From Clostridia bacterium (GTDB lineage: Bacteria > Bacillota > Clostridia > Christensenellales > Borkfalkiaceae): a DNA stretch of 64,000 nt. Shown piece after piece: positions 59 to 24,928 of the stretch (the stretch's first letter is position 1; the number at the start of each line of letters is the position of its first letter). Where the stretch lies: contig JAGASM010000014.1 in NCBI GenBank assembly GCA_017621735.1, positions 1-64,000 of the forward strand, read 5' to 3'. Made by a program: the position numbers and the translations under genes. The notes under the pieces were generated by a model. It did no database searches. It saw only the letters and a list, made by a program, of their open reading frames with translations, and was not told where the DNA came from.

Positions 59-2398
59 ATGAGAAAGAGTGTGTATATTTTTGCCGCCGCACTGATGACG
101 GTTGCGTCGTGCCCGTTTGCTTTGTCGCTTACTGCGCAGGCCGCTCGCCATGAAATATGGTTAGGGGACTACGTTGCGCGAATTGAGGAAACGGACTGTG
201 TATGGCAATCGGCATTGCAGGTCGGGCAAGGATTCTCGCGCGTGCGCTATGGGTATGAAAGCGTAGACGGTCAAGAAAATAAATTTTTGCGTCTTGCAAA
301 TTTTGACGGCACGTACGACACGCAAGCGACGGGGGTTACCGTTCGGCTTGCCACGGCGTCTTCGCAGGCACAAACGGTTTCCTTTCGCTATCGTTTTTAC
401 GAAGGGGATTATATCTACACGGACGATATGACCGTGCTTACTCTTTCGTTGGACGGCGTCGAATATCAATTGACAACTGACGACGTAACGCCTTGCCCGC
501 AAGACGGTTACGGTTGGGCTACTTTTTCAAAAGAAATTACGTCAACCGCTTCGCACGACCGCATGACGCTCGTCTTTTCGTTTGAAAAGAGCGTGCGGTA
601 CAGCAATTCTCAAACGTATCTTGACGTGGACGATCTTTCCGTTACTTCGTCGGAAGGGGAACGCGTATCCGCAGGCGATTTTGAATATGCTTCCGCCGAC
701 AATTCGGGCGACAAAGCAACCGACTTTGACACGGAAGTCAATCATCTTGAATCCAAGCAACAATATATGCTTGATACGGACGGTATCGCGCAATATAGCG
801 TCAATACCGCCTATTCGCAAACGGAGTCGGCAAACTTTAACGGGGGAACGCGTACGGTTGCGCTTCCTCGCCGTGCAAGTACGGGAACGTCGCAAGGGAC
901 GGCGTCGGGTGAGAGCGATACGTATGCGGTATACGACGGTTCCAGCGACAACACCTATTTGCGACTTGGCAATTTTAACGGGACGACGACCACGCAAACG
1001 CGGTTTACCATGTATTTCCACGATCCCGTTACAGGCGAAATCAAAAAGAATATGCCCGCCGTCAATCAAATTTATATCAGTTTCCGCTACCGACTTTATT
1101 TGGACGATACGTCGCGTGCGCTCATCGATAGGAACGACGCTGTAATTACAATCAGCACGCGCTCGTCTTCAACGCTAAAATCGGGGAACGTTTATCTCGA
1201 CGAACTTACCGTCAATGAAGCGGGCGACGATACTTGGCATGAGTTTAATATGATCTTGGAAACAAGACTTGGCACAACGGCAAACGTGTCCGTCTACTTC
1301 TACGGTCAGTCGGAAGCGTCGTATACTACGGGAACGTACATCGACTTGGACGACTACGTGATGGCTACGCCTTCGGGTGATAATTATTCGCATTTACGCG
1401 GTACGTTTGAAGGACTTGTGCCCGAAAGCGTAACGGACGATCCGCTCAACGGGTGTGTCTATTTTAATCCCACGCTCGGCGTTGCGGGGACGAAAACCGC
1501 GCGCAATTCGGTAGATTACGCGCTCGCGCTTGAGAAAGACGAAACGGTTTCAATCAAAACGGACTTTGCCCCTGCGACAAACGTATATCATATCACCTTT
1601 GAGGTGTTGGGCAACGGAAGCCTTGATTTGTATTTATCGGGACGTTCGGGCGATAAATTTACGCTTACGGTGGGAACGGACGTAACAACGAGTGCGATTC
1701 ATGCTAAATGGACCGAAACGGAAGGATCGTACGTTTGTTCGCTGTACGTCGCGCGCCTTGCGCAAACCGTTATGCGCAGCGTGGATTTTGTCAATCGAAG
1801 TTCCGCTCCGATTATGATAGATAACGTCTTTGTCGGGCAGGTGGAAAGCGTCGATTGCGCGAGTGGGGATTACGCTACATATCTCTCTTCTCTCGGTGCG
1901 TTGAAAGAAAGGGTGCAAACTACACTTTTGGATTATCTTCCCACGGCGCAAAGGCAAATCAGGCTTGCTTTGGCAAACGCAGAACAAATTACGGAGTACG
2001 CATCGCAACCGCGAATGGACGCCGCGCTTCACGCGCTTACAAGTTCTTTGGCGGAAGAAAACATGAAAACGGATTTGAGCGTGCTCAACGAAGTGCTTGA
2101 AAGGGCGGATCTCGTCTTTGCGGAGAGCAATCAACGGGATTACACGCGAGCAAGTTGGGTGGTTTTCACACAAAGTTTGCAAAACGCCCGCAAGATTACA
2201 GGCGAAAACACGCAAGAAGAAGTGCTTGCCGCGGCGGAAGCGCTGTCGGCCGCAATCGAAGGGCTTGAACCTGCGCAATTAGAAGAAGATTTCTGGTTGG
2301 CAATCGGAATCGGAGGATTGAGCGGCGTCGGCGGCGTCGTAGCGATCGGGGCGATTGTATTTACGAAAAAAAAGAGAAGGGGGAATGACAATGCGTAG
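59..2398 (+). CDS. Exported beta-rich surface protein with FIVAR-like domain and C-terminal membrane anchor
   Basis: 779 residues, of unknown function. The start ATG at 59 is chosen because GGAGGA lies at 49-54; an earlier in-frame codon at 14 has no ribosome site. A signal peptide (about 1-30, ending near AQA) is followed by three long beta-rich, jelly-roll-like segments (about 35-200, 285-450, 455-620). The first two share a pattern: FRYR near the start and YLDVDDL or YIDLDDY near the end. They are probably carbohydrate-binding folds, an inference from shape. Around 675-735 the pattern of Tyr-Thr, Ser-Trp, Ala and a Leu-rich end matches a FIVAR domain. The C terminus is a glycine-rich transmembrane helix followed by KKKRR, with no LPxTG, so it is a plain membrane anchor. 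The stop codon overlaps the start of the next gene. Confidence 0.8.
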   Translation: MRKSVYIFAAALMTVASCPFALSLTAQAARHEIWLGDYVARIEETDCVWQSALQVGQGFSRVRYGYESVDGQENKFLRLANFDGTYDTQATGVTVRLATASSQAQTVSFRYRFYEGDYIYTDDMTVLTLSLDGVEYQLTTDDVTPCPQDGYGWATFSKEITSTASHDRMTLVFSFEKSVRYSNSQTYLDVDDLSVTSSEGERVSAGDFEYASADNSGDKATDFDTEVNHLESKQQYMLDTDGIAQYSVNTAYSQTESANFNGGTRTVALPRRASTGTSQGTASGESDTYAVYDGSSDNTYLRLGNFNGTTTTQTRFTMYFHDPVTGEIKKNMPAVNQIYISFRYRLYLDDTSRALIDRNDAVITISTRSSSTLKSGNVYLDELTVNEAGDDTWHEFNMILETRLGTTANVSVYFYGQSEASYTTGTYIDLDDYVMATPSGDNYSHLRGTFEGLVPESVTDDPLNGCVYFNPTLGVAGTKTARNSVDYALALEKDETVSIKTDFAPATNVYHITFEVLGNGSLDLYLSGRSGDKFTLTVGTDVTTSAIHAKWTETEGSYVCSLYVARLAQTVMRSVDFVNRSSAPIMIDNVFVGQVESVDCASGDYATYLSSLGALKERVQTTLLDYLPTAQRQIRLALANAEQITEYASQPRMDAALHALTSSLAEENMKTDLSVLNEVLERADLVFAESNQRDYTRASWVVFTQSLQNARKITGENTQEEVLAAAEALSAAIEGLEPAQLEEDFWLAIGIGGLSGVGGVVAIGAIVFTKKKRRGNDNA

Positions 2399-4271
2399 TT
2401 TTAACCGTGCTATCAAACGTGCCGCGCTTGCGCTTGCGTTTTTTATCGTTACAACGTGCACCGCAGTCGCTATGCCTTCTCTTTCCGCACAAGCGGCGAC
2501 CTACGGCGTTGATTTCAGAAACGGGGTAATCAAATACATTTTGGACGATCCGCTTGCGAAGATTCCAAACACCTTCGAGGCGTCCATTTGGATTGAAGAA
2601 GGGGCGCAAGGAAACGAGAAACATATCGGCTACATATTCGGAAATGAAATGTCGGCTGCGACTTCTATCCTCAGTTACGGCGTCGACCGCGATGGCCATT
2701 TGTTCGTAAACTGGAACGGTTACGAACGGTACGTCGTATTTGATTCCGTCGACGTGCGCATGAGCGAATGGATCCACGTGGCGGTTGTGCGCAACGAGCA
2801 AGCAAACTGCTTTGAGTTTTATTTGAACGGGGTTTTAACGCAGACGTCAACCACGGGCGTAGGGACGGCGATCAAACCGTTTGCTACTACGCACATCATC
2901 GGCGGCGATCGCTTTATTCAAAACACTCCCTCGAAATATTTTGAAGGGAAAATCCGTCAGGTTACGCTTTACGAACAGGCGCTCACGCAGGGCGAAATTA
3001 ACCGCGACCGCATCAACGGCGATAATATCAGCGGTGCAACGCGCAGCGGTCTCATCTTTAACACACAGTTAAGCGCAGACGACGTTGTCGCACGCGATAC
3101 TTCGTATTACGAAAACGACGCTTACGTTGCAAGTACGAATCACTCTTTTGAAGGGAAGTTTTTTGAAACGCAGGACTATTCGCTTTCCGTAATTCCCGAC
3201 TGGCAAATGGTAACAAATCACTACAATACCATTTTGCATACGCTTCCCGATTTCTTGTTGACGAATTACAGCGCGCAAAAAATTAAAGCGTTGATCACGG
3301 TGGGCGACCTTGCCGACGGGGGGAATAATGAGGCGGACTGGTACCGCATGTTTAATCCTCTTAAAGCGCAACTTAAACGCTTGTACGGGCATATCCCGTT
3401 TGTACCTACTCCGGGCAACCACGACTACGACGACGAGTGCGCTTCTACCCGCGGTTTGAAATACTTTAACGAAGCGTTCCCCGCGGACGAGATGATGGAA
3501 CGCGGCGGAATGGCGGGAACGTATGACGGCGGAACGGAAAATGCCTATTACCTTGTTGATACGGAGTTTGTAAACTATATTATCATCAGTCTTGAATTTG
3601 GCTATCGCGACGAAGTGCTTGCTTGGGCGGGCGAATTGTGTGAACAATATTCCGACCGCCGCGTCATCATAACCACGCACTCCATTTTGACTGCGGGCGG
3701 ATTGTATGATCCTGCCGGCGCAACGTCGTACGGTTGGACGAGCAAGGGCGTCGAAGCGAATTCAGGCGAAGATTTGTGGGATAAATTCCTTAGAAAGTAT
3801 CCGAATATCTTTATGGCGTTTTGCGGACACGTTTCGTCCGACGACGTTTTATATGCCGAACGCGTAGGCGATCACGGAAACGTGGTAACGGCTTTCGTTA
3901 TCAACGCACAGGCAATTATCATGAACGACGGTCTTGAAAATTTGGTAAGCATTCTTACGTTTGATGAAGAACGTCAAATCATGTATTTCAACTACTACAG
4001 CACGATCACGGAAAAATTTTATAACTATCAAAATCAGTTTGCCTACAGTTTTAACGGAAATACGCCGATTTGTGCGCCGAACTATGATGCGCAAGCGGCG
4101 TCGGAAGAGGTTGACCGCGCGCAAATTTTGAGGAAAGTGGTGTACGGCGACGCTCAATCCGCCGATGCAAATACGAACGACGGCACGGGAGCGGTCATCG
4201 CGATTTCCGCGATGCTCGTTGCGCTCGTCGGCTTGGTTTTCTTGTTGCGCAAAAAGGGGGTACGTCGATGA
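2391..4271 (+). CDS. Surface-anchored LamG-metallophosphoesterase
   Basis: 626 residues. ATG 2391 is preferred to ATG 2385 because the G-rich ribosome site at 2378-2383 is 7 nt from the former and 1 nt from the latter. Order: signal peptide (1-35), a concanavalin/LamG-like domain (about 40-215), then a calcineurin-like metallophosphoesterase (about 260-500). The metal-site motifs are visible: DWQ near 270, GDLAD near 305, GNHD near 343, TTHS near 432 and GHV near 475. The C terminus is one transmembrane helix plus a basic tail, so the enzyme faces outward. Known family members hydrolyse phosphomono- or diesters; the substrate here is unknown. It overlaps the gene before by 8 bp and the gene after by 4 bp, implying translational coupling. 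Confidence 0.85.
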   Translation: MRSFNRAIKRAALALAFFIVTTCTAVAMPSLSAQAATYGVDFRNGVIKYILDDPLAKIPNTFEASIWIEEGAQGNEKHIGYIFGNEMSAATSILSYGVDRDGHLFVNWNGYERYVVFDSVDVRMSEWIHVAVVRNEQANCFEFYLNGVLTQTSTTGVGTAIKPFATTHIIGGDRFIQNTPSKYFEGKIRQVTLYEQALTQGEINRDRINGDNISGATRSGLIFNTQLSADDVVARDTSYYENDAYVASTNHSFEGKFFETQDYSLSVIPDWQMVTNHYNTILHTLPDFLLTNYSAQKIKALITVGDLADGGNNEADWYRMFNPLKAQLKRLYGHIPFVPTPGNHDYDDECASTRGLKYFNEAFPADEMMERGGMAGTYDGGTENAYYLVDTEFVNYIIISLEFGYRDEVLAWAGELCEQYSDRRVIITTHSILTAGGLYDPAGATSYGWTSKGVEANSGEDLWDKFLRKYPNIFMAFCGHVSSDDVLYAERVGDHGNVVTAFVINAQAIIMNDGLENLVSILTFDEERQIMYFNYYSTITEKFYNYQNQFAYSFNGNTPICAPNYDAQAASEEVDRAQILRKVVYGDAQSADANTNDGTGAVIAISAMLVALVGLVFLLRKKGVRR

Positions 4272-6403
4272 GAGTGAACAAACGATTCTTAACCGTCGGT
4301 TTGTGTTGTATGCTCGTATTCGGCGTAACGGCTTGCAACGAAAATCTTGGGGAATATGAAATTCGCGTAACCGATAGCGAATACGGTACGGTGGATACCG
4401 TTCGCCGTGCGGACGAAGGGGAACTTGTTACGGTTGACGTCCGCGAAAAGGACGGCTACGGCATACACACGCTTCTCGTGAACGGAGTCCCCGTTTCCGG
4501 TAATTCTTTCGTGATGCCCGATGCGGACGTCGTTGTTTCCGTTTCGTATGCGCGTTTGGACGGTGCATATACCGTAACGACGGAAGAGAGTATGCACGGT
4601 GCGACGGTTGCCGATCTTTTCACGGCGAACGCAGGCGATACCGTAACGCTTACGACCTATTGCGCGTATGCAAGCCAAGTGAGCCGTTATCTTGTGAACG
4701 GATCGCCGATCGCGGGCAGTTCGTTTACCATGCCCGATTCCGACGTTACCGTTACAACCGAATACGATATGTTAATTCCGCAAACGCCCGTCGTAATCAA
4801 GGCGATTGCAAGTTATCAGCAGGCGACGAGTTACTGGTACGCTTCGTACGGCGAAACGGGAATTACCATAAAAGCAGTTGTAGACGATAACATCGTGTTT
4901 ACCGCTTACAATGCGGGGATCGACATCGGTTTTTTGGACAACGTAGAGTTTATCGTTGGCTACGGAACGGACAAAGACCTTTCTTCCACTCATTTTAACG
5001 TTCTTGTATCTGGGGACGGCAGATGTCGGTTCCGTCAGTATATCGGCGGTTGGACGGGCGCCAACGCAAGCGGCGTGTCATTTTCTTGTGAACCGTGCGA
5101 CGTGTTCGAACACGGCTTTAACGGCTATATCGCCACGGTTACCATTCCGTACAGTCGTTTTGGGGTGAATCGCGAGCAAGCGCTCGGCAACATGACGCTC
5201 GGCGTTTCCATGCGCAATTCTTTGAACGCCCTTAAAACGTCGTGGGCAAGTTTTAGCGGACTTGACTGCGAGTGGGGGAACGGAAAAAAACATTGTATCA
5301 TCAACGAAGACGGAAGTTTTTCGCCAAACGTTTCGCAGTCCGATTATCTTGTAGTTGGCGACGGCTTGCTGAACGGAGTCAGCGCGCAACTTTCCTCGCT
5401 CGGTTCGGTGGGATCGAGTATCTATGCCGACCGTACGATTGCAAAATGGACGCAAGAAATCGACGTAATTGCGGCGTATCATCCCCAACACGTCGTCTTC
5501 TCGGCAGGGGCGAAAGAACTTACAACCAAATCCGTACTTTTGACGTTTGACGACATGCGGCGCTTTATCGAAGAGTTCCGCGTAAAAATGCCGGAGGCAA
5601 GACTTACCGTCGTCAGTGCAATCCCTACGCTTGGAACGAATATTCTTCCCGATAAAACGGTCGCGTTTAACAGCATGGTTCAATCGTACGTCGACACCAT
5701 GCCGAACGTCGATTACATCGACGTTTGCTCGTCCGTTTATTCGAACGGCGTTGTAAACGAAAGTTTGTACGTTTCGGAAAGGACGTTTTACGACTACGGC
5801 ACCAACTTGCTTTGCAATGCGTTACTCCAACATTTCGGACAAAGCACGCCTAGCGGCGACGGTGCGGTCTGGGGGTCAAAGGGAGTATATCTCGCAACGC
5901 AAGGCTGGCAAGAAAGCGACAACGCCTTAAATTTGTCAGCGGGCGGATCACAGTTTACCTTCTTGAAAAATTATAACGGCGGCGACTTTGATTTTACAGT
6001 AAAAATGAGTTTGAACGGGACGATCTATAACGGAGATGCGTATCCGAAGTTTGGTATCGTCTTAAACGGCGTCAAGGCTTCTCGGTATTATTTTGTATAT
6101 GCCGACATGCTTACGTCTAACCGTGTCGGTGTGGTTACGCGTCCTTACAACGGATATCAATGGACGGGTGCAAGCGACGTTGCAATCGAAGGGTTGGAAT
6201 ACGTCAAACCGTCGTACGTTACGTTGCGGCTTGTACGCATTGGCTCGCAAGTTACGTTTACGGTAAACGGGCAAGAGATTTATAGCGGAAACGAGAGTAT
6301 GTTGGGCGACGGCGAACCCGTTTTGGGACTATTCTCGTTTAACTTGCCGTTAACTGTTACCGAATGGGAAATGACCGTGCCGTCAGGGCAGGAGGTGTCT
6401 TAA
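4268..6403 (+). CDS. Lipoprotein with InlB-like repeats and a degenerate SGNH-hydrolase domain
   Basis: 711 residues. The start ATG shares ATGA with the preceding stop. A lipobox (VTAC, Cys near residue 23) predicts lipid anchoring. Two short repeats follow (about 30-160), each ending in a pattern like LVNG...SFTMPDSDV. A beta-rich segment spans 170-360. Residues about 365-530 have the layout of an SGNH/GDSL hydrolase, with GDG where GDS is expected, SAGAKEL where GxND is expected and SAIPTL as in the family, but the nucleophile serine and the Asn-Asp pair are missing. The C-terminal 170 residues form another LamG-like segment. I infer a binding protein derived from an esterase. It is followed after 1 nt by the next gene. 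Confidence 0.7.
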   Translation: MRVNKRFLTVGLCCMLVFGVTACNENLGEYEIRVTDSEYGTVDTVRRADEGELVTVDVREKDGYGIHTLLVNGVPVSGNSFVMPDADVVVSVSYARLDGAYTVTTEESMHGATVADLFTANAGDTVTLTTYCAYASQVSRYLVNGSPIAGSSFTMPDSDVTVTTEYDMLIPQTPVVIKAIASYQQATSYWYASYGETGITIKAVVDDNIVFTAYNAGIDIGFLDNVEFIVGYGTDKDLSSTHFNVLVSGDGRCRFRQYIGGWTGANASGVSFSCEPCDVFEHGFNGYIATVTIPYSRFGVNREQALGNMTLGVSMRNSLNALKTSWASFSGLDCEWGNGKKHCIINEDGSFSPNVSQSDYLVVGDGLLNGVSAQLSSLGSVGSSIYADRTIAKWTQEIDVIAAYHPQHVVFSAGAKELTTKSVLLTFDDMRRFIEEFRVKMPEARLTVVSAIPTLGTNILPDKTVAFNSMVQSYVDTMPNVDYIDVCSSVYSNGVVNESLYVSERTFYDYGTNLLCNALLQHFGQSTPSGDGAVWGSKGVYLATQGWQESDNALNLSAGGSQFTFLKNYNGGDFDFTVKMSLNGTIYNGDAYPKFGIVLNGVKASRYYFVYADMLTSNRVGVVTRPYNGYQWTGASDVAIEGLEYVKPSYVTLRLVRIGSQVTFTVNGQEIYSGNESMLGDGEPVLGLFSFNLPLTVTEWEMTVPSGQEVS

Positions 6404-6404: not shown

Positions 6405-9400
6405 ATGAAAGGACGAATGAAAAGGATTCGACTTTGGCTCTTCCTTCTTGTAATGGTAGCGGCTTGCGGTACGCTCGTCGCTTGTAAGGAGGGCGAGCCG
6501 TCGCCTTCCGCAATCAGCGTAAACTTCATGAACGAAGACGGAAATATTTTATATGCAACCGCAGTTGAACCGAATACCGCTCCCGTTTATGCGGGCGAAA
6601 CGCCTAAAAAGGAACAAAACGCAGCGGAAACGTTTGAATTTGTCGGTTGGACGAGCGGCGACACGTTGTATACCGAATTGCCGACGGTTTCGTCTAATAC
6701 GGTGTTTACGGCAACCTTTACCGCAACGCCCCGTCTTTACGACGTAACGTTTGTCGTGGAAGGGCAATCGCACGTTCAGCAAGTTGTTTACGGCGCTGTT
6801 CCGACGTATGCGGGCGAAGCGCCCGAAAAGGAACAAAGCGTAGCGGAAACGTTTGAATTTGTAGGTTGGACGAGCGGCGGCACGCTGTATACCGCACTGC
6901 CGACGGTTACGTCGAATGCAACGTTTACGGCAACCTTTACCGCAATGCCCCGTCTTTACGACGTAACGTTTGTCGTGGAAGGACAATCGCACGTTCAACA
7001 AGTTGCGTACGGCACAGTTCCGACGTATGCGGGCGAAATGCCCGAAAAGGGGCAAAGCGTAGCGGAAACGTTTGAATTTGTAGGTTGGACGAGCGGCGGA
7101 GCGCTGTATACCGACCTGCCGACGGTTGCGTCGAACGCAACGTTTACAGCAACCTTTTCCGCAACGCCCCGTCTTTACGACGTAACGTTTGTCGTGGACG
7201 GTGCCCAACACGTGCAACGCATTTCTTACGGCTCGATTCCCGCTTACGCGGGCAACCTTACGTTTATGAAAGACGGCGCGGTGTACGAGATTAAGGGTTG
7301 GGATAATCCCTTGATCGCAGTTACGGGTGAAGTAACGTACGTCGCCGTTGTCGAACTCGCTTCGAGCGAACGGGCTTATTACAGTGTAAACTTCGTAGAC
7401 GAGAGGGGGAACATTTTATATTCTACCGTTGTCGATGAAGAAAATGCGCCCGTTTACGTAGGGGACGTGCCCGAAAAGAAACAAAGCGTATCGGAAACGT
7501 TTGAGTTTGTAGGTTGGACGAGCAACGGCACGTTGTACACGCAACTTCCAAACGTTACGGAACACACCGTGTTCACAGCGACCTTTACGGAAACGCCCCG
7601 TCTTTACGACGTAACGTTTATCGTAGACGGTCAATCGCACGTTCAACAGTTTGCTTACGGCACCGTGCCGTCATATGCAGGCGAACATATCTTTAACAAA
7701 AACGGCGTAATGTACGAAATTACGGGTTGGGATTGCAGTTTCACCGCGGTTACGGGGACAAAAACCTATACCGCAATAACGGAACGCGCTTCAAGCGTGA
7801 TGGTCAACTACGTGGTGGCGGGAGAAATGATTTCGATTCCCGCACAAATCGGGGCAATTCCTTGCTTTTACGGTACGCCTTATCGCGACGCCGACGTCGG
7901 TTGCAATTACGTATTTACCGGATGGAAAAGCGGATCGGAATTTTATCCTGTCGGAACGCAACTTCCCGCCGTTAGCGGTACGGTAACTTATACGGCGGTA
8001 TTCGAGGCGCAATATAAGCAAGTAACCGTTACCTATCGGAGCGACGGACAGGTAATTGACGTCAAAAAGGTGAACTACGGTTCTCGTCCTTCCGCCGTTG
8101 CGGACGGCGTCGTAGGGCGTTCGCCGACCGCTCAATATATGTATGAATTTGCCGGTTGGAAAATTTACGGTCAAATGTACGGGCGCGATCTTCCCGCCGT
8201 TACCGACGACGTAACGCTCGACGCGGTATACGTGCAAGTTCCGCGTACCTATACGCTTACCGTAATCTATCGCGATGAAAACGGCGAGTTTTCGCGTTAT
8301 TCGCAACCGTATTCTTACGGGGACAGTTATCGCGTAGAGTCGCCCGCGCGGAGCGGCATGCAAGCGACCGTTCCGTACGTTAGCGGTATTATTGCAAGCA
8401 ATAAGAGCGTTACTGTAAATTATACGAACGCAACGACGTGGGACGGCTCGGCTGTCGAATGGACGAGCGGCGCAGGAACGCAAAGCGAACCTTATCTCAT
8501 TGAAAGTGCGGCGCATCTTGCATATCTTGCCGTTCAGGTCGACGGGGGGAACGCGTATGAAAACACCTACTTCCGCCTTGCGGCAGATCTCGACCTTGCA
8601 GGGTTAGCGTGGACGACGATCGGCAACAATGCACAGCCGTTCTCGGGCACGTTTGACGGAAACGGGCATACGGTTTTTGGACTTTACGTCAACGATACCC
8701 GCACAAATACGGTGGCAAATAGCGGTCATGCGCTCTTCTCTACCGTTAAAAACGGAACGGTTAAAAATCTTTCGGTGAGCGGTTCGGTGCGCTCGGTTGC
8801 GCGTTATACGGCAATCGTCGTCGGATACCTTCAATCGGGCGGCTCGATTGAAAACTGCGTCGCGTACGGCGAGGTGTTCGGGTACATGAGCACGGGCGGA
8901 ATCGTCGGGATCGCCGAAGGCAACGTTACAAACTGTAACAACTATGCTACGGTGCGCGATAACGGAAAGAGCGGCGGATACCGTTTCGGCGGAATTGCAG
9001 GCGCTCTCGCACAAGGCTCGATTTCTAACTGTTATAACTACGGAATTATCATAAACGATCACGGCGATGGCGCGGCGGGAATTGTTTCGAGAGTGGAAAC
9101 AACCGCAACGATCACCGATTGCGCCAACTATGGCTACGTCCGTACGGCTGGGAACACCGCGGGCGGCATTGTCGGGAACGACGTCAGCACGAGCACGCAT
9201 TCCCGTCTTGTCAATCACGCTCCTATCAATGCAATCGACGGAATGGTCGGCGGTATCGTCGGCGGATATAACAGTACTGCAAATTATACCGACTGCACCA
9301 ACTACGGCTATATTTCGGGCAGTTCGCGCGTCGGCGGTATCGTTGGCCGCGTAGGCGTTTCGGGAACGGAAGGAATCGCGCTTTTGAAAAACGCCGTCAA

Positions 9401-9992
9401 CTACGGCAACGTCTATGCAACGGGTTCCAACTGCGCGGGCATTGCGGGCGCAAGCCTTGGCACCATAGAAGACTGTATCAACTACGGCACCGTGCGTTCG
9501 CTCAGTACGAGCGTCGCCGGCATTGTGGGAACGCAACAAATTAACACGACCGCCGTTGTAGATCCTTCCGTTGCCCGCTGTGTCAACTACGGCGACGTCA
9601 TTACGGAAACCAAGTCGACGAATGCCGTTTTAGGCGGAATTGCCGGACGTACCGATGCAAAAACGGTCGACGGAGTTGCCTATCATGCACAATTCGTTGA
9701 TTGTATCAATCACGGCGACGTAATTGCACGCAACGGCGGAAGTTATTCCGGCGGTATTATCGGAGCATGTAACGGCGGTTACGTAACCGATTGTGAAAAC
9801 AACGGAACGGTACTCGCGGCAAACGGTTCTTACGTGGGCGGAATTGCAGGGAGCAACTATGGCTACGGCAAAGTAACCGCGTGTACCAACACCGGTGCGG
9901 TAAAGGGCGGCGCGACGGTAGGTCAAATTTGCGGTCAACGCACAAGCACCTCCAAAGCGACCGAAAATATTGAAAACGGTAGGATTATTTAA
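6405..9992 (+). CDS. Large lipoprotein: InlB-type repeats followed by a GLUG beta-helix
   Basis: 1195 residues, probably an adhesin or ligand-binding protein. GGAGG at 6391-6395 sets the start. A lipobox (LVAC, Cys near 27) follows a short signal. Residues about 40-610 hold roughly eight copies of a 65-75 residue repeat of the Listeria-Bacteroides/InlB B type, with a conserved YAGE...FEFVGWTS...TFTATF pattern. A MucBP-like linker covers about 615-675. A header module (YLIESAAHLAYLA, then DLDLAG and DGNGHTV) then leads into many GLUG repeats (GGIVG, NCxNYG) to the C terminus, the composition of a right-handed beta-helix. No catalytic motif or LPxTG is seen. Three of the repeats are nearly identical at DNA level. 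Confidence 0.8.
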   Translation: MKGRMKRIRLWLFLLVMVAACGTLVACKEGEPSPSAISVNFMNEDGNILYATAVEPNTAPVYAGETPKKEQNAAETFEFVGWTSGDTLYTELPTVSSNTVFTATFTATPRLYDVTFVVEGQSHVQQVVYGAVPTYAGEAPEKEQSVAETFEFVGWTSGGTLYTALPTVTSNATFTATFTAMPRLYDVTFVVEGQSHVQQVAYGTVPTYAGEMPEKGQSVAETFEFVGWTSGGALYTDLPTVASNATFTATFSATPRLYDVTFVVDGAQHVQRISYGSIPAYAGNLTFMKDGAVYEIKGWDNPLIAVTGEVTYVAVVELASSERAYYSVNFVDERGNILYSTVVDEENAPVYVGDVPEKKQSVSETFEFVGWTSNGTLYTQLPNVTEHTVFTATFTETPRLYDVTFIVDGQSHVQQFAYGTVPSYAGEHIFNKNGVMYEITGWDCSFTAVTGTKTYTAITERASSVMVNYVVAGEMISIPAQIGAIPCFYGTPYRDADVGCNYVFTGWKSGSEFYPVGTQLPAVSGTVTYTAVFEAQYKQVTVTYRSDGQVIDVKKVNYGSRPSAVADGVVGRSPTAQYMYEFAGWKIYGQMYGRDLPAVTDDVTLDAVYVQVPRTYTLTVIYRDENGEFSRYSQPYSYGDSYRVESPARSGMQATVPYVSGIIASNKSVTVNYTNATTWDGSAVEWTSGAGTQSEPYLIESAAHLAYLAVQVDGGNAYENTYFRLAADLDLAGLAWTTIGNNAQPFSGTFDGNGHTVFGLYVNDTRTNTVANSGHALFSTVKNGTVKNLSVSGSVRSVARYTAIVVGYLQSGGSIENCVAYGEVFGYMSTGGIVGIAEGNVTNCNNYATVRDNGKSGGYRFGGIAGALAQGSISNCYNYGIIINDHGDGAAGIVSRVETTATITDCANYGYVRTAGNTAGGIVGNDVSTSTHSRLVNHAPINAIDGMVGGIVGGYNSTANYTDCTNYGYISGSSRVGGIVGRVGVSGTEGIALLKNAVNYGNVYATGSNCAGIAGASLGTIEDCINYGTVRSLSTSVAGIVGTQQINTTAVVDPSVARCVNYGDVITETKSTNAVLGGIAGRTDAKTVDGVAYHAQFVDCINHGDVIARNGGSYSGGIIGACNGGYVTDCENNGTVLAANGSYVGGIAGSNYGYGKVTACTNTGAVKGGATVGQICGQRTSTSKATENIENGRII
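6586..7199 (+). repeat. Near-identical 219-bp in-frame tandem repeats
   Basis: The string CCCCGTCTTTACGACGTAAC begins at 6729, 6948 and 7167, giving a period of exactly 219 bp (73 codons). The sequence between is nearly identical between the first two intervals, and a more diverged unit occurs with the same string near 7596. Because the period is a multiple of three, gain or loss of units keeps the reading frame. Confidence 0.85.
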
Positions 9993-14550: not shown

Positions 14551-14612
14551 CCGAAAAACGTCAAACGGGCGCTTTGCCCGTGAGATAGAGTACTTTTCCA
14601 AATAAAGAAGAT

Positions 14613-14798: not shown

Positions 14799-14829
14799 TA
14801 TTCTGTATCAATATATTTAGGAGATGTTC

Positions 14830-16563: not shown

Positions 16564-19286
16564 AAATGAAAACGAAACGCAATTTATTGCGCGCCCTTCT
16601 TGTAGGGACGGTGGCAAGCGTGTTCGGCGGAATGTTCGTTCTTGCCGGTTGCGGTGAAAATTACGGTGATTTCGGGAAACAAATTACGTTGGATGCAGAC
16701 GATGCAAAACAAACGTATGCGTACTATTCCCTCGTCAACGAAACGGTGGTCGTCGACTATAAAGATTTTATTTCCGAAGAGGACAAAAAACACGTTACCG
16801 ACGACATGGAACAGTGGTTCAAGAAGTCAAGCGTCGTCTATAACAGTTGCGCGGCGGAACTTTCTATCGACGGCAATAAGGTGTCCGTTACGGCGAAAAA
16901 GCCCGGGAGCGTCAAGTATGCTCTTCAGTTGATCCACACCACGGAAAACAACGTAAATACGTTCTATGATACAAGCGCTACGTTTACGTTTGGTGTGGAA
17001 CAGGCGGTGTCGACGGTGGAAGAATTTCAATCGATGCGCGATCCTTACGTGTGCTACGTCTTGCAAAACGATATCGATTTGAGCGGGGTGGAATGGTCGC
17101 CGTACACGCTTCGCGGACATTTGGACGGCAACGGCTTTACCGTAAAAAATTTGGATTACGCGGCAAAGGCGGGGGATAACTGCGTTGGGTTGTTTTCGGA
17201 AATTGACGGTTGCGTCGAAAACGTTACCTTGCAAAACTGCAATGTTTCGGTGAGAGGAAACAGCGAATACGTTGGTCTTCTCGCGGGGAAATGCAAGGGA
17301 CTTTTGAAAGACGTTTCCCTTTCGGGGGAAGTGAACGCGGGGGATTCAGACTTTGTCGGCGGAGTCGTGGGCTGTCAATACGGCATTGCGCGCGGGGTGC
17401 AGGCGGACGTTGCGGTAGAAGGATGCCGTGGCGTCGGCGGAATTTTCGGCGACGTTGTTACGGATCAGTTCGTACGGCAATACGATATTAAAAACCTCGG
17501 CTCGGTAAAAGGTTACGAATGGGTCGGTGGAATTTCGGGTGGCATGACGGACGTTTACCGCACGGAGGCAACGCGAGCAACCCTTTCTTCCGTCGTCAAT
17601 CAGGGCGCGGTGGAAGGAAGTTATTACGTCGGCGGAATTGTCGGCTATGCCGTTCCCGTTCAAATTTATCACTCGAATACGGCGGGGAAGGGAAGTGATA
17701 ACTCTTATACCGCAAAAATGGACGTAAGCATTGAAGATGCGACCAACGAGGGCGCGGTAAAAGGCATCGATTACGTCGGCGGAATTGCGGGTAAAATCGG
17801 CGATTCGGGCGTAAGCGTCAAGGGCGTATCGGGCGTGATGAAAAATCTCGGAAACGTAGAGGGCACTTATTACGTCGGAGGATACTTCGGATATGCGACG
17901 GGGTTTACGGTTTCTCGCTTAGAAAATAGTGTGTCGGTAATCGGGAAAGGGTACGTCGGCGGAATCGGTGGATTTACCGATATCCTCGAAAACTGCAGCA
18001 ACGAAGGTACGATTTCCGCGCAAGGAACGTATTACGACGGAAATTCCTACCTCGGCGGCATTGCGGGGAATGCAAACAAAATCACTTCTTGCTCAAATAG
18101 CGGTGTCATTGCTACGGAGAATGACGGCGGTCTTGTCGGCGGAATCGTTGGATATATGCAAGACGGTACGCTTACTTCCTGTAAAAATACGGGAAGCATT
18201 GACTGCGTAAACGCAAGTAAAGTCGGCGGAATTGCGGGAAAGACGAAAAACGTAACCGCAAACGCGAACGAAAACACCGGAGAAATTTTTGGAAACAACC
18301 AAGTAGGCGGTGTATACGGCGTATCGAGCGGTACGTACACAAACGATAAGAACAATGCAAACATCAACGGGAAAGGGAATAACGTTGGCGGGGTGATCGG
18401 TTGGGTTGTCGGCGGAACGTACACGGGCGCAGTCAACGAAGGGGGAACCGTAGAAGGAAACGACTCCGTCGGCGGACTGATCGGATTTGTCGAGGCGTCC
18501 GGCTCGTCGCACAAATACGAATCGCTCAGTTCCAAGGCGACGGTTGTCGGAAATTATCGCGTTGGCGGGGTGTTCGGCTCTTCCGGAATTAGTGCTACAA
18601 TCGACGGGTTGCAATGCTCGGCACCTTCCGTTACGGGCGAGCAATGCGTCGGCGGAGTGCTGGGGAGCGGAGGCAACATCACTCTCTCCAACTCACTTAT
18701 CATTAACACCGTCGTTACGGGCGAAAAATACGTTGGCGGAATTGCGGGTGTTGCGTTCGCTGTCAAATCGGGGACCTTCCGCGGGCAGTTGCAAATCGTT
18801 GCGCCCGAATCCAAGCAAAGCGTTTACGTCGGCGGGATCGCGGGGCAACTTGTCTATGCGGAAAACTGTATTAACTACGCGGACGTTGCCGTACAACGCG
18901 GCGATTGCGTCGGTGGGATCGTCGGATATTTAACGACGACGGTTAGCGGGACGGACTATATGACGTTCTCTTGTACGAATAAAGGGAACGTTACGGCGGC
19001 AAGCCACGTCGGCGGTGTCGCGGGTTGTGCGGATAAAGCATTCTTCAAAAATTGTACCAACGAAGGGGATATTGCAGGTGCGGGCAACTGTGCGGGCATT
19101 GCGGGGTACGTCGATTTGTTCCGCAGCACGGAAAGTTGCAAAAACGAAGGGAACGTTACCGCGCAAATGTATGCGGCAGGGATTTTCGGTTGTTCGATTT
19201 CGGGCACGCTTTCCGACTGTTCCAACTCCGGCGCAATCAACTGTCAATCCGAAATCGGCTCCCTTTACGTGGGCGACGGGAATTGA
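16560..19286 (+). CDS. Large GLUG-repeat lipoprotein
   Basis: 908 residues, with the start overlapping the preceding stop (ATGA). The lipobox is LAGC (Cys near 31). An N-terminal domain (about 35-145) is followed by the header CYVLQNDIDLSG and GHLDGNGFTV, then some 25 GLUG-type turns (YVGGIAG, NKGNVTAASHVGG) to the C terminus. It is a lengthened paralogue of the previous protein with the same domain order, and the pair probably arose by gene duplication. No enzymatic motifs and no C-terminal anchor. The next gene starts 8 nt later. Confidence 0.8.
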   Translation: MKMKTKRNLLRALLVGTVASVFGGMFVLAGCGENYGDFGKQITLDADDAKQTYAYYSLVNETVVVDYKDFISEEDKKHVTDDMEQWFKKSSVVYNSCAAELSIDGNKVSVTAKKPGSVKYALQLIHTTENNVNTFYDTSATFTFGVEQAVSTVEEFQSMRDPYVCYVLQNDIDLSGVEWSPYTLRGHLDGNGFTVKNLDYAAKAGDNCVGLFSEIDGCVENVTLQNCNVSVRGNSEYVGLLAGKCKGLLKDVSLSGEVNAGDSDFVGGVVGCQYGIARGVQADVAVEGCRGVGGIFGDVVTDQFVRQYDIKNLGSVKGYEWVGGISGGMTDVYRTEATRATLSSVVNQGAVEGSYYVGGIVGYAVPVQIYHSNTAGKGSDNSYTAKMDVSIEDATNEGAVKGIDYVGGIAGKIGDSGVSVKGVSGVMKNLGNVEGTYYVGGYFGYATGFTVSRLENSVSVIGKGYVGGIGGFTDILENCSNEGTISAQGTYYDGNSYLGGIAGNANKITSCSNSGVIATENDGGLVGGIVGYMQDGTLTSCKNTGSIDCVNASKVGGIAGKTKNVTANANENTGEIFGNNQVGGVYGVSSGTYTNDKNNANINGKGNNVGGVIGWVVGGTYTGAVNEGGTVEGNDSVGGLIGFVEASGSSHKYESLSSKATVVGNYRVGGVFGSSGISATIDGLQCSAPSVTGEQCVGGVLGSGGNITLSNSLIINTVVTGEKYVGGIAGVAFAVKSGTFRGQLQIVAPESKQSVYVGGIAGQLVYAENCINYADVAVQRGDCVGGIVGYLTTTVSGTDYMTFSCTNKGNVTAASHVGGVAGCADKAFFKNCTNEGDIAGAGNCAGIAGYVDLFRSTESCKNEGNVTAQMYAAGIFGCSISGTLSDCSNSGAINCQSEIGSLYVGDGN

Positions 19287-19294: not shown

Positions 19295-19981
19295 GTGTTT
19301 GACGAACGGTATGCAACCTTTCAAGCGTACGGAATTTCGCACGTTGTAGCGCTCATTGTCGGTGTCGGTGCGGTTACGCTCATGCTTTGCTTGCGGAAAA
19401 AGATCCAAAGAAGCCGTTTTTACGAAATTTTGTGCGGGTGCGTTATGCTTCTTTTAGAAGGGGTATTCTTAACGTGGACAATCCGCAATCATGGACTGCG
19501 TCCTGAACAACTTCCTTTGCAGTTGTGCACGATTTCACTATACGTAAACGTTTTTATGTTACTTTCCGGAAGATTAGAGCCTTTCCGCTACACCTGCTTT
19601 TGGACACTTACAGGTCCGATTCTTGCATTCTTTATTCCGATGCAAGGGTACGATTTTCCACATTTCCGCTATTTACATTATTATTTGAATCATCTTCTCA
19701 TTTTGCTCTCCACGGTTTATTTCTTTCTCGTCAGCGAAAAGCACGTTACCTTGAAAGACGCGTTGTGGAGCGAGGGTGGAATGACGGCGCTTGTCTTGTT
19801 CGTCATTCATCCGATCAATTATTGTTTGAATACCGATTTTATGTTTTTAACGCATAACGAGGGGTATTTTTCCACGATATTTGCGTGGCAAAACGTCGTG
19901 ATATGGTTTGCGGCGGCAGCCGTTCATCAAGCGTTGTTTTGGCTGTATCATCGGTTTTTATCTCCAAGGAGTAAGGTATGA
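19295..19981 (+). CDS. YwaF-type integral membrane protein (TIGR02206 family)
   Basis: 228 residues. GTG start with GAGGT at 19285-19289. Six hydrophobic helices are seen (about 15-32, 42-60, 70-88, 98-115, 125-142, 190-212). The pattern of QLPLQLCTISLYVN in helix 3 and FFIPMQGYDFPHFRYLHYYLNH between helices matches the YwaF/TP0381 family, which is widespread in Bacillota and of unknown function. Polar and aromatic residues (Gln, His, Tyr) conserved inside the helices suggest a binding pocket or enzyme. It is the only multi-spanning protein in the surface cluster, and its stop overlaps the next start by 4 bp, so it belongs to the operon. Confidence 0.8.
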   Translation: MFDERYATFQAYGISHVVALIVGVGAVTLMLCLRKKIQRSRFYEILCGCVMLLLEGVFLTWTIRNHGLRPEQLPLQLCTISLYVNVFMLLSGRLEPFRYTCFWTLTGPILAFFIPMQGYDFPHFRYLHYYLNHLLILLSTVYFFLVSEKHVTLKDALWSEGGMTALVLFVIHPINYCLNTDFMFLTHNEGYFSTIFAWQNVVIWFAAAAVHQALFWLYHRFLSPRSKV

Positions 19982-22074
19982 AATTGATTAAACTTTTTAC
20001 ATCGGTTGCAGTCGCTTCGGTGGTTGCGTTTTCGTCCGTGTTTTTTGCGGGGTGCGGAACGAAAATCACTTTGATCGACGGCGAAGACCGATTGACGGAG
20101 TCCGTTTCAGGAACGTTTACTCTTCCCGTTCCGGAGCGCGTCGGGTATCGCTTTCTCGGGTGGTTTGACTCCGCCGACAGCGGCATTGCGTATACGGACG
20201 GAGAAGGGGCGGGGCTTTCCGCTTGGACGGACGGCAATCCTACGACGTTATATGCGCAATGGGAATTGAAGGAATACACCTTCCTCTTCGACGCGACGCT
20301 CGGCGAACTTGACGTGGACGGGGAAACGGTGCTTTCCTATCTTTCCAACGTGGATACGTTTCCCGTTCCCACGCGGAGTGGGTATGTGTTCGGCGGATGG
20401 CTTAACGGCGACGGCGAGCCCGTTTGCGACGGGTTTGGCAATCCGCTTTCCGACTGTCGGCAGTTTACGGCGGAATCCTATCCCGTAAACGACGAAAACG
20501 GCACGGTATCCCTTACCGCACAATGGTTGGAAAAGCGCGTTACGTACACCTTCCAAGTGAACGGCGGAACGGCGGTTACGGAGGTTTCAGGCGGTTTGGG
20601 GGAAGTGATCGACCTTCCCGCAACGGCAAAAGACGGCTATTCGTTTGTAGGGTGGAGTCGGAGCAGCGGAGCGCAAGATTTGGTTTCTTCGCCTTATACC
20701 GTCCCTTCGACCGATCAAGATAATACCACCTTTTACGCTTTTTTCCAACCTGCAACCGTTGCGGGAGTAACGTTTACCGCAATCAATAACGATACGGAAT
20801 ACTCGGTGGCGTACAACGGGACGGAAGAAAACGTCTATATCCCCGAAATTTACAACGGAAAATTCGTTACAAAGGTAACGAAAATCAGTACTTCCGTTAA
20901 AACGCTTTACCTTCCGCATACAGCGGTGAGCATCTCGGAAGGCGCGATGCAAAACTGTACCAAGTTGGAAACACTTCGCCTTCCTTATTCGCTTACGTCT
21001 ATTCCAAATAATTTGTTAAAGGGTTGTTCCGCGCTCTCGGAAGTCATGATTCCGCAAACGGTAACGTCGATCGGGGACAGCGCATTTGAAGGGACGAAAA
21101 TTAAGACGTTTGCCATTCCTGCAACCGTTCGCAGTATCGGTGATAGTGCGTTGCGTTCGACGGAAGTGGAGGGGATTTCGGTAGCCGCCGAAAACAACAA
21201 CTATGTGTCGGTGGACGGCGTATTATACGAAAAGCAAGGAACTGTTTACAACCTCGTTCAGTATCCTGCGCTCAAAGAAGGGGATTCTTACACGCCCGAC
21301 GCGCGAACGGTTTCGATTTTGGAGAAAGCGTTTTACGGGGTAGGACGAAAAAACGGTCAAACGGTAGACGGCGGGTTGAAAGAATTACATCTCGGCGGAA
21401 AGATTTCGACGGTCGGCGACGACGCATTTGCATCAAGCAGCCTTGTTCGCGTTGAAATCGACTATGCGGGGGCGAGCGTTTCTCCTCGATTTGGTAACCG
21501 CGTATTCCAAGACTGTTTAGACCTTCGAATGGTACGCATTACGCTCAATCAACCGCCCCAACTTGGGAATAACGCATTTTACGGTACGTCTACGTACGTC
21601 TACGTGCCGACGGCGGCATATAATTCTTATCGCTCGGCGAGCGGTTGGAGTGCGTATTCAAGTAAAATCCGACAGTCGCAAAACATTATGAACGACTTCG
21701 CGTACGAATCATACGGTACGGGCGTTCGCCTCATTCAGTATCTCGGTTATGCGGAAGAGGTGGAAATTCCAGAATATATCAACGGGTTGCTCGTTCTTTC
21801 GATCGGTGAAATGGCATTCTACGGCAGTACGACGCTCAAGAGCGTTTCTTTACCGAGCGGGGTGCAAAATATCGGAAATTCCGCGTTTGCCTCGTGTACG
21901 TTCTTGCAGTCGCTTACGTGCAAAGCGGAAACACCGCCGACGCTCGGAACAAATTGCTTTAGCGGGGTAACGGCAATGAATATTTACGTGCCCGCGGGCG
22001 AATCGACCGTCGACGCGTATCGTAATGCGACGGGTTGGAGTTATTATTCGTCGAATATCTTTACAATTTCGTGA
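19978..22074 (+). CDS. Lipoprotein with InlB-type and BspA-like leucine-rich repeats
   Basis: 698 residues. The lipobox is FAGC (Cys near 25). Three Flg_new/InlB-type repeats (about 30-265), each with a GYxFxGW core and a terminal YAQW, TAQW or YAFF, precede a BspA-like (LRR_5) region (about 270-690). There the repeat is TSIGDSAFEGTKIKTFAIP-like, and two pseudo-repeats end in YVPxxxxxxYRxAxGWSxYSS. BspA-type repeats in other bacteria bind host or bacterial surface proteins; the ligand here is unknown. It is co-transcribed with the YwaF-type gene (4-bp overlap) and followed after 10 nt by the FN3-like gene. Confidence 0.85.
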   Translation: MKLIKLFTSVAVASVVAFSSVFFAGCGTKITLIDGEDRLTESVSGTFTLPVPERVGYRFLGWFDSADSGIAYTDGEGAGLSAWTDGNPTTLYAQWELKEYTFLFDATLGELDVDGETVLSYLSNVDTFPVPTRSGYVFGGWLNGDGEPVCDGFGNPLSDCRQFTAESYPVNDENGTVSLTAQWLEKRVTYTFQVNGGTAVTEVSGGLGEVIDLPATAKDGYSFVGWSRSSGAQDLVSSPYTVPSTDQDNTTFYAFFQPATVAGVTFTAINNDTEYSVAYNGTEENVYIPEIYNGKFVTKVTKISTSVKTLYLPHTAVSISEGAMQNCTKLETLRLPYSLTSIPNNLLKGCSALSEVMIPQTVTSIGDSAFEGTKIKTFAIPATVRSIGDSALRSTEVEGISVAAENNNYVSVDGVLYEKQGTVYNLVQYPALKEGDSYTPDARTVSILEKAFYGVGRKNGQTVDGGLKELHLGGKISTVGDDAFASSSLVRVEIDYAGASVSPRFGNRVFQDCLDLRMVRITLNQPPQLGNNAFYGTSTYVYVPTAAYNSYRSASGWSAYSSKIRQSQNIMNDFAYESYGTGVRLIQYLGYAEEVEIPEYINGLLVLSIGEMAFYGSTTLKSVSLPSGVQNIGNSAFASCTFLQSLTCKAETPPTLGTNCFSGVTAMNIYVPAGESTVDAYRNATGWSYYSSNIFTIS

Positions 22075-22084: not shown

Positions 22085-24928
22085 ATGAAAAAAATATTAA
22101 AAAGGTTGTTGATTGTCGCAACGATGACAATGATGGCGCTTGCATGCGTTGTGCTTGTCGGATGTAAAGAGGAGTTGGGTGCCAAGACGATTACCAACCT
22201 CCGCTATGACGGGGAAAATATTCGTTGGACGCGCGTCATTAAGGCAAAACATTATCTTCTTTCCGTGAACGGGCAAGAAAACGTTACCGTCAATCAGGTA
22301 GAAGGGGAAACGGTTGCTTATGCGATTCGTACGATGGACGATTTCTCTTTGACGCTTGAGGCGGTAGTCAAAGAAGGGGACGAGGATAATCCGAAAATCA
22401 CCCTCGATTTTGTCAATATCGGCACGGTTGAAGGGGTAAAAGTAGAGGACGCTAAACTGCAATGGGATGCGCTTGACGGTGCGGACGGCTACGAACTCAT
22501 GAAGAATGGGATTCTTGTCAATCAGACGGTTGGCGTCAACGAATACGCGTTGGAGTCGGGTGCGTTTTCTTACAAAGTACGTGCAGTAAAAGGGACGACT
22601 TCCGCCGTCGACGGGAACAACGGGTATTATTCCGTTTGGAGCGAGGCAGTAACGGGTACTGTTTTGGAAGCACCGAAAAACTTAAAGTATGACTCGGAAA
22701 CGTTCACTTGGGATCGTGTCAATCATGCAGTTTCGTATACGATTGCAATCGGAAACGACGAGTTTACGACGACGCAAACGGAGTATGAGTATACGGGTTC
22801 GGACGATTTCTCCGTTTGTATTCGCGCGAACGGCGATGCGGAAGAAGATTATTACGCTTCTCCGTTTACCGCAAAAAAGGAATGCGTATATCTCGATCCC
22901 GTTACGACGTTGACCGTCAAAGACGGCAACCTCGATTGGGAAAATACCGAAAATGCAACGGGGTATAAAATCCGCATTGACGGAATGTTGCAAGAACAGA
23001 TCTTGCGCGACAGTATCTACGAAAATTTACAAAGCGGAAGATCGTATCAAATTAGCGTTCTTCCCGTAGGAAACGGCGATTTTACCTTCTCACAGTGGTC
23101 GAATACCGTTACCATTAACGTTCTTGCGCAGCCCGTTGTAATGTATAACGGTTCGGCAATCGGTTGGACGGCGGTTACAAATGCGGGCGGGTATACGATC
23201 CTGATCACAAAGAATGGCGAAGAAGTACATAAACAAACGGTGGGAAGTGGGATTCACGTCTACGGAGAATACGGTTTCACGGATGCGGGTGTATATCAAG
23301 TAAGCGTAAAGGCAAACGGGGATACGGAAAGCGGACATTACGATTCCCGCTACAGCAATCCTTACGCGGTGCGTAGGCTTTCCGCGCCCGAATCGATTAC
23401 CGTTGCCAATCGCTTGGAAGAAACGGCACAAGTGGCACTTTCCTATTCTCCCGTCGCCAACTCGGCAAGTTATACGGTGAAAATCAACGGAACGGATACG
23501 TTTGTTAACGTCAATGATACGACGGTTGAGGTAAATATCGCAAATCTCACCTCAACGTTGACGCAGTCGGAGGTTACCTTCTCTGTCGTCGCAAACGGTA
23601 CGGTTACGACGGAAGGGGCGACCCTCGGCAGCGCGGAAACGTCAAAGACGGTTACAAAACTTGCCGCACCGCAAAACGTACAAATTAATGACGGCGAAAT
23701 CAGTTGGAATGCGGTAACCGCAGCGGAAAGCTACGTCGTTACCATCGACGCAAATCGCTTTATGACGACGGGCACTTCGTTTACTCCCGATTGGACGGCT
23801 GGGGCGCATACCGTAAGAGTACAGGCGGGCGGAAACGGTACGGACGTCATCAGTTCTTCGTTTACGGAAGAAAAGAGCGTAACCAAACTCAACGCACCGA
23901 CCAACCTTTCCATCAATGCGGAAGGTCGTCTTACTTGGAACCGCGGAAATACGGTAGGGGTTTCGGCGTTCGTCGTTCAATTTGATAAGGGGAATCCGAT
24001 ATCCGTCAATGAGGACAGTTTCGATATTCAAAGTTACGTCAACAACGTCAATGCAGGCGTTTGGACGGAACTTACCGTATATGCAGCGGGCGACGGAAGT
24101 AACTACATCAGTTCCGACTATTCGGAAACGGGTGGGATCTATAAATACGTCGCGCCGACAAACCTTGCGACGAATGGCAATACGCTCATTTGGAGCGAAC
24201 CGACGTATAACGGTACGACGCCTTCAAAATATGAACTCGTTATTATGAAAGGCGGGGAAGTATTTAAGACGACGACGGTTACTTCCAACTCTTACGTGAT
24301 CGGTACGGAATTTGATGCTGGGGCGTATTCGTTTACCGTCAAAGCGCTTGGGGATAAGTTTGCCTCGGGAACTGCGGTTTCCACGTGGGATTCCGCATCA
24401 TCCGCTTCCGTATCCTTCCAAAAACTTGAACAAGTCAACGTTACAAAGTCGGGCAACACGTACACGTGGCAGCCTGTAATCGGTGCGACGGCGTATACCG
24501 TTCAAATCGGAAATAATCCCGCAACGACGGTAACCACGACGTCGTATGAGTTGAACGTCGCTACGGCGGGCGAGTTTAACGTCTTGATTACGGCAAAGGG
24601 GAATGCGAGTGTAAACATTCTTAATTCGGATACGGTTACGATCTCTCAACGGGTAAGAGCGCTCACAACGCCTGTCGTAGTATCGGCAACGGGCGGGGTG
24701 CTCACAATGGAAAAACCGTTCGATTTTAGCGGAATTACCGGTTTTAACGTGATTATCGGCGGTGTGAGCAACTTTGTATCGATTGCAAATTGTACGGTAA
24801 CGGAAACGCAAATACTCATCAATTATACCGCTTCGTCAAGCGCGACGGTGCAAGTATCCGCTGTGGGCGGAATTTTCGGGGCGGACGGAGTCTTCTACGT
24901 CAACTCACAACTTTCTCAAGAGGTATAA
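22085..24928 (+). CDS. Lipoprotein of tandem fibronectin-III-like domains
   Basis: 947 residues. ATG 22085 has GAGGAGG just upstream (about 22073-22079). The lipobox is LVGC (Cys near 28). The whole mature protein is about ten repeats of 80-95 residues with an FN3-like rhythm: Ala-Pro-x-Asn-Leu at the start, a central Trp (LxWDxVxxAxxYxIxI), then YxVxVxAxGD and YSxWS. No other domain is visible. It looks like a spacer or scaffold displayed on the membrane. It is the last gene of the second surface operon, ended by the terminator at 24935. Confidence 0.8.
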   Translation: MKKILKRLLIVATMTMMALACVVLVGCKEELGAKTITNLRYDGENIRWTRVIKAKHYLLSVNGQENVTVNQVEGETVAYAIRTMDDFSLTLEAVVKEGDEDNPKITLDFVNIGTVEGVKVEDAKLQWDALDGADGYELMKNGILVNQTVGVNEYALESGAFSYKVRAVKGTTSAVDGNNGYYSVWSEAVTGTVLEAPKNLKYDSETFTWDRVNHAVSYTIAIGNDEFTTTQTEYEYTGSDDFSVCIRANGDAEEDYYASPFTAKKECVYLDPVTTLTVKDGNLDWENTENATGYKIRIDGMLQEQILRDSIYENLQSGRSYQISVLPVGNGDFTFSQWSNTVTINVLAQPVVMYNGSAIGWTAVTNAGGYTILITKNGEEVHKQTVGSGIHVYGEYGFTDAGVYQVSVKANGDTESGHYDSRYSNPYAVRRLSAPESITVANRLEETAQVALSYSPVANSASYTVKINGTDTFVNVNDTTVEVNIANLTSTLTQSEVTFSVVANGTVTTEGATLGSAETSKTVTKLAAPQNVQINDGEISWNAVTAAESYVVTIDANRFMTTGTSFTPDWTAGAHTVRVQAGGNGTDVISSSFTEEKSVTKLNAPTNLSINAEGRLTWNRGNTVGVSAFVVQFDKGNPISVNEDSFDIQSYVNNVNAGVWTELTVYAAGDGSNYISSDYSETGGIYKYVAPTNLATNGNTLIWSEPTYNGTTPSKYELVIMKGGEVFKTTTVTSNSYVIGTEFDAGAYSFTVKALGDKFASGTAVSTWDSASSASVSFQKLEQVNVTKSGNTYTWQPVIGATAYTVQIGNNPATTVTTTSYELNVATAGEFNVLITAKGNASVNILNSDTVTISQRVRALTTPVVVSATGGVLTMEKPFDFSGITGFNVIIGGVSNFVSIANCTVTETQILINYTASSSATVQVSAVGGIFGADGVFYVNSQLSQEV

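Follow-up and report, generated by a model that had tools for sequence, protein, structure and literature searches.

Layout of the ten genes

The window analysed here covers the first 64 kb of contig C5 (77 kb) from the genome of a gut-type Clostridia bacterium (G000), whose assembly spans 1.78 Mb in 43 contigs and is 95.6% complete. Between positions 59 and 24928, ten open reading frames (g1-g10) all lie on the forward strand (Table 1). They encode two proteins with a C-terminal membrane anchor (g1 and g2), seven lipobox lipoproteins (g3-g7, g9 and g10) and one six-helix membrane protein (g8), which is the inventory that a first-pass annotation of this DNA had listed. The annotation had also described the gene ends as overlapping or nearly touching; the true start of g10, marked by an upstream AGGAGG ribosome-binding site, lies at 22085, so g10 does not overlap g9. 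The start of g2 was likewise placed by its ribosome-binding site. The contig starts 58 bp before g1, and thus the region upstream of g1 and any further genes there have been lost.

A consensus scan revealed a 20-pair stem, scored as an intrinsic terminator, between g5 and g6, together with a promoter identical to the consensus at 12 of 12 positions; a second terminator was found 3' of g10. These features are consensus matches, and their positions agree with two transcription units. Because the terminator and the promoter separate g5 from g6, the genes fall into operon A (g1-g5) and operon B (g6-g10), the two adjacent operons that had been proposed. Beyond operon B there is a tRNA-Ser gene (25059-25148), after which two identical 28-base terminator-like hairpins (ACAATCCGACAGGCAACTGTCGGATTGT) occur about 290 bases apart, at 25173-25200 and 25467-25494.

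Both g1 and g2 carry an N-terminal signal and a hydrophobic C-terminal segment followed by a basic tail. Anchoring by a sortase was considered and rejected, as the LPxTG motif is absent from g1 and g2 and no sortase (PF04203) was found in the genome. The annotation had noted both absences, as well as that of a transporter, and no sugar transporter is encoded in either operon.

Table 1. Positions of the genes and transcription signals in the window, and of the paralogous regulators elsewhere in the genome
Feature	Position	Strand	Basis
g1: signal peptide, jelly-roll (CBM-like) domains, FIVAR-like helical region, C-terminal TM anchor	59..2398	+	AF2 model, orthologues
g2: LamG (PF13385) and calcineurin-like metallophosphoesterase (PF00149), C-terminal TM anchor	2385..4271	+	Pfam
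g3: lipoprotein; two InlB-type repeats, putative CBM9-like region, dead SGNH domain (~337-525)	4268..6403	+	Pfam, structure, alignment
g4: lipoprotein, InlB-type and GLUG-type repeats	6405..9992	+	Pfam sub-gathering, repeat pattern, orthologues
g5: lipoprotein, InlB-type repeats (Flg_new, 6 stretches) and GLUG-type repeats	10066..14550	+	Pfam, repeat pattern
Intrinsic terminator, operon A end	14603..14645	+	consensus scan
Sigma-70-like promoter, operon B, TTGACA-18-TATAAT, 12/12	14769..14798	+	consensus scan
g6: GLUG-type repeat lipoprotein	14824..16563	+	repeat pattern only, no Pfam family
g7: GLUG-type repeat lipoprotein, 18 G-G-[IVL] motifs	16560..19286	+	Pfam sub-gathering, pattern
g8: TMEM164/ATGY-superfamily integral membrane protein (TIGR02206, PF14808)	19295..19981	+	Pfam, TIGR
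g9: lipoprotein, InlB repeats and BspA-type leucine-rich repeats	19978..22074	+	Pfam
g10: lipoprotein, repeated FN3/Ig-like domains	22085..24928	+	weak matches
Intrinsic terminator, operon B end, 5' of tRNA-Ser	24934..24964	+	consensus scan
Seven ArsR-HTH regulators, G000	C27:67014-67943, C27:82609-83511, C27:58376-59281, C23:53552-54448, C1:15055-15924, C39:55027-55884, C33:15004-15858		

Proteins encoded by operon A

The module list of the annotation was largely recovered: LamG, metallophosphoesterase, InlB-type and BspA modules were identified with Pfam and the SGNH domain by structure, but GLUG appeared only as sub-gathering Pfam matches (g4 and g7) or as a repeat pattern (g5 and g6), and the FN3-like domains of g10 gave weak matches only. 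The InlB-type repeats of g4 were also recognized by sequence pattern only. Searching the PDB by sequence with g1, g2 and g3 returned nothing useful. AF2 models of g1 and g3 were built from only two sequences each and are of low confidence overall (pLDDT 46.8 for g1; confidence 47.0 for g3), with residues 480-740 of g1 and 337-525 of g3 being interpretable and the remainder too uncertain. There was no clear Pfam match in g1, FIVAR being sub-threshold at 0.017, and its orthologues are 35-39% identical. In its low-confidence model, residues ~480-596 form a jelly roll similar to CBM35/CBM6, with middling Z scores of 8-10, and helices in the better part of the model resemble FIVAR-type domains.

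The g2 protein matches LamG at 1.1e-16 and PF00149 at 3.3e-10 (41.2 bits against a curated cut-off of 21.5), whereas an NPxTG match is sub-threshold (17.8 bits against 23.5). It thus resembles the calcineurin-like metallophosphoesterases that carry LamG, and D272, Q274, D308, N345, H346, H432 and H482 are invariant across 10 aligned sequences with identities down to 28%. However, it differs from them in its C-terminal membrane anchor and in its metal site, where the full dinuclear ligand set (DxH, GDxxD, GNHE/D, H, GHxH) is incomplete: DxQ stands in place of DxH and GHxx, without the second histidine, in place of GHxH in 11 of 11 sequences (g2 and ten relatives), while the other ligands are kept. 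A DxQ motif is also present in ADPRibase-Mn-like phosphoesterases. Because two of the usual histidine ligands are missing from g2 and all of its relatives, its activity is not assured; the natural reading of the residue pattern is that its metal chemistry would be reduced but retained. In a scan of viral contigs, four IMG/VR contigs (L118, L119, L120 and L121) encoded distant relatives of the phosphoesterase domain (26-27% identity), and no relative of g3 was found.

The g3 lipoprotein contains an InlB-type match (Flg_new_2) and ends in a LamG/3-keto-disaccharide-hydrolase-like region. Between them, a CBM9-like region, which Pfam did not find, is predicted from sequence pattern to precede the SGNH domain. 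Residues ~337-525 are modelled as an SGNH alpha/beta/alpha fold, for which the nearest structure is a sialate O-acetylesterase (6xpm; Z 17.5, rmsd 2.6 over 168 residues), and Foldseek matched the same region to 7pzh at 7.3e-06. Although the fold is thus shared with SGNH/GDSL esterases (sialate O-acetylesterase, CE2, CE3), an alignment with a CBM9-GDSL lipoprotein of the same genome indicated that the catalytic serine, the block-III asparagine and the block-V Asp/His have been replaced in all five g3 orthologues. The OSK domain of Oskar (Z 13.8 against 5a4a), which is non-catalytic, offers a comparison. Profile comparison links g3 only modestly to the CBM9-GDSL lipoprotein (hhalign E 0.00093, probability 22%), so the evidence for the SGNH assignment is structural, together with the block alignment. 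Since the catalytic residues are replaced in all five orthologues, g3 is most likely a binding subunit. The aligned lipoprotein itself (L135:4335-7925, 1196 aa, CBM9 and SGNH/GDSL domains) lies in a sugar ABC locus, has intact catalytic residues and seems to be an active equivalent of g3.

Operon A in related genomes and its proposed function

Relatives were searched in 151 genomes of the same family. Strong relatives of g2 and g3 were adjacent at four further loci. The order g1-g2-g3-g4-g5 is kept at three of these: a second copy in the same genome (G000:C27), G013:C4 (SVHG01000009, Clostridiales bacterium isolate SIG378) and G118:C9. The fourth (G086:C47) is cut by a contig end and contains g1, a g2-g3 fusion and one g4/g5-type gene; in the fusion, the LamG-phosphoesterase and the SGNH-like protein are joined in one 1269-aa frame (L054:1553-5362). 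The distribution is patchy, covering 4 of the 151 family genomes and four genera; of the genomes sampled from its genus, this is the only one with operon A. No full-length g1 relative was found in 297 genomes sampled from the order, and 391 genomes sampled from the class yielded, outside this genome, no match to g3 that reached E 1e-40, both samples being without the three other family members. Over g1-g3, the copies are 36-41% identical pairwise and about equally distant from one another, which illustrates that the gene order has outlasted a long divergence. On the evidence of these alignments and gene orders, operon A is a conserved, co-inherited unit. A recent duplication within the genome was rejected, as its two copies are 38.9% identical and no closer than those of other genera. 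The possibility of a mobile element was also considered, and no integrase was seen beside the counterparts. A tRNA-Thr gene lies 4.8 kb upstream of the copy on C27.

At all three counterpart loci where sequence before g1 is available, a divergent ArsR-type gene precedes g1. The three regulators are 49-57% identical to each other and consist of a winged helix and a beta-rich C-terminal domain of ~230 residues. Seven paralogues of this type exist in the genome of the window (Table 1), and their common C-terminal domain has the motifs SLEICSE, PxWWPxxxTQYG and GGFNLFGKxxGxxxQDI. Those on contigs C23, C1 and C33 adjoin sugar ABC permeases, solute-binding proteins, GH2 and GH43; also nearby are a weak pectate-lyase-like match and a lipoprotein that combines CBM9 with a GDSL domain of active type. 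From these surroundings, the seven-member family probably senses carbohydrate. In addition, distant g2 paralogues on C39 have LacI regulators, SASA/DUF4886, GH43, GDSL and GH2 as neighbours, and one on C30 lies alongside an AraC regulator.

Operon A resembles gram-positive polysaccharide utilization loci (gpPULs) in its surface lipoproteins, which are predicted to be co-transcribed and to bear domains of carbohydrate-binding type, and, at the counterpart loci, in a putative carbohydrate-responsive regulator whose paralogues are linked within this genome to GH and sugar ABC loci. However, neither operon A nor its four counterparts encode a glycoside hydrolase, a lyase or a transporter; the phosphoesterase is accompanied only by the CE-like esterase fold of g3, which lacks its catalytic residues. 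The repeat classes of g3, g4, g5, g6, g7 and g9 are those of BspA/InlB/GLUG surface proteins, but here they are lipid-anchored, and in operon A they belong to a conserved multi-gene order with a LamG-phosphoesterase.

We consider it somewhat better than an even chance (about 0.55) that operon A is a sugar-responsive module for glycan capture and processing at the cell surface and that operon B is a separate neighbouring lipoprotein operon. The divergent ArsR-type regulator, which for the window would lie beyond the contig end, would tie expression of operon A to a sugar or glycan signal. The products would be exported by Sec and retained at the membrane by lipid (g3, g4 and g5) or by a C-terminal helix (g1 and g2). 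The long InlB/GLUG proteins g4 and g5 would serve as stalks and adhesins, while the polymer would be held by the CBM-like domains of g1, by LamG in g2 and, in g3, by the lectin-like and catalytically dead SGNH domains. The g2 phosphoesterase, if active, would take off a phosphate or phosphodiester substituent, and the freed sugars would be imported by ABC systems encoded elsewhere. What we observe directly are the domains, the anchoring motifs, the limits of the operon, its kept gene order, the fusion, the lost SGNH catalytic residues and the glycan-related neighbours of the paralogues; the regulation, the ligand, the activity of g2 and the formation of a complex are the parts of this scheme that we infer.

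The strongest competitor, which we regard as possible but clearly less probable, is that operon A builds an adhesion or biofilm structure in which g4 and g5 are the working parts, g1-g3 are lectins and the phosphoesterase is vestigial or structural. Three of the five proteins carry InlB/GLUG repeats, g3 is catalytically dead, g2 and every relative lack two usual metal ligands, and the operon has no catabolic enzyme, all of which would fit such a structure. However, the invariance of the D, D, N, H, H and H ligands of g2 down to 28% identity argues for retained chemistry, and the surroundings of the regulators and paralogues are catabolic. The capture reading can also be extended to g1-g5 forming one surface complex in which g2 and g3 act jointly on a phosphorylated glycan, with g8 acylating the lipoproteins of its own operon; we hold this extended form to be unlikely. 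It is also unlikely that operon A is directed at phosphate polymers of other bacteria or yeasts, such as teichoic acid or phosphomannan, for competition or scavenging rather than sugar uptake. The phosphoesterase is the only plausible enzyme in operon A, and LamG and CBM-like domains would aim it at such a target, but there is no lytic enzyme and no immunity-like gene in the operon, and the context is indirect.

The first-pass annotation knew of no described system with this gene set. That is fair for the exact set, and our literature search found nothing joining a metallophosphoesterase with polysaccharide utilization, nor InlB with GLUG lipoproteins; however, the surroundings of the genes suggest glycan capture, and functions of that kind are known. 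To our knowledge, a phosphate-removing route of glycan use has not been described in Clostridia. Many large surface proteins of the InlB, GLUG and BspA types in uncultured gut Clostridia have no assigned role, and the conserved order, the g2-g3 fusion and the sugar-linked regulators give at least some of them a testable one, glycan capture with dephosphorylation. Two features of the locus stand out as most unusual: a dead SGNH subunit, which one relative carries in fusion with the phosphoesterase, and a TMEM164 gene amid genes for lipoproteins.

Operon B and its relatives

The TMEM164-type gene is g8, whose product matched PF14808 at 6.8e-30 (104.6 bits against a cut-off of 25) and TIGR02206 at 85.7 bits against 75. 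The genome encodes no other TMEM164-type protein, and relatives of g8 elsewhere are distant (19-29% identity). LhaT (YpjA), a lipoprotein N-acetyltransferase of Bacillus, is a DUF1405 protein of the same ATGY/TMEM164 superfamily (PMC12345273), and the operon of g8 encodes four lipoproteins. By analogy, g8 may acylate lipoproteins. However, g8 belongs to TIGR02206/PF14808 rather than to DUF1405, and DUF1405 (PF07187) matched neither g8 nor any other protein in the genome. A TMEM164-like gene within a lipoprotein operon thus offers a lead towards lipoprotein acylation in organisms other than Bacillus, but does not amount to a finding.

The g9 lipoprotein combines Flg_new (InlB-type) repeats with a strong LRR_5 (BspA) match (3.7e-39). 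Its relatives occur in L112 and L113, and full-length g10 relatives were found in seven other genomes. In two of these (G149 and G025), a g9 relative is followed by the g10 relative, and next come genes for an M50-like membrane protein and a GLUG lipoprotein; in G091, G054, G009, G137 and G041, g10 adjoins the M50-like protein. The order g6-g7-g8-g9-g10 was present in none of the other genomes whose loci were read, and only the g9-g10 pair is kept, usually beside the M50-like protein and not TMEM164. Operon B is therefore a separate, loosely conserved surface-lipoprotein operon, and the ten genes are best read as two systems rather than one machine.

Of the common surface machine of the annotation, the co-inherited unit g1-g5 is supported. 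The gene order for which it had suggested a search in relatives is kept for these five genes at three other intact loci and, with g2 and g3 fused, at one that is broken off by its contig end, while the ten-gene set occurred at none of the other loci read; the absence of the order from all relatives, which the annotation had named as part of a refutation, thus applies to the ten genes and not to g1-g5. One surface machine of ten genes, suggested by adjacent genes on one strand with similar repeat classes, is very improbable given the terminator and promoter between g5 and g6, the absence of g6-g10 behind any other operon A locus and the occurrence of g9-g10 relatives without operon A.

The g10 alignment has no stretch conserved enough for scanning viral contigs. 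Integrases adjoin the operon-B-like clusters of G149, G025 and G137, and none is near operon B of the window. Three such clusters (L112:6645-15313, L113:1-8560 and L116:2110-7757) lie directly beside a tyrosine integrase, which suggests mobility. They contain an InlB or LRR lipoprotein, an FN3-like lipoprotein and an M50-like HExxH membrane protein, and the cluster in L112 also encodes a GLUG lipoprotein that bears a C-type lectin domain.
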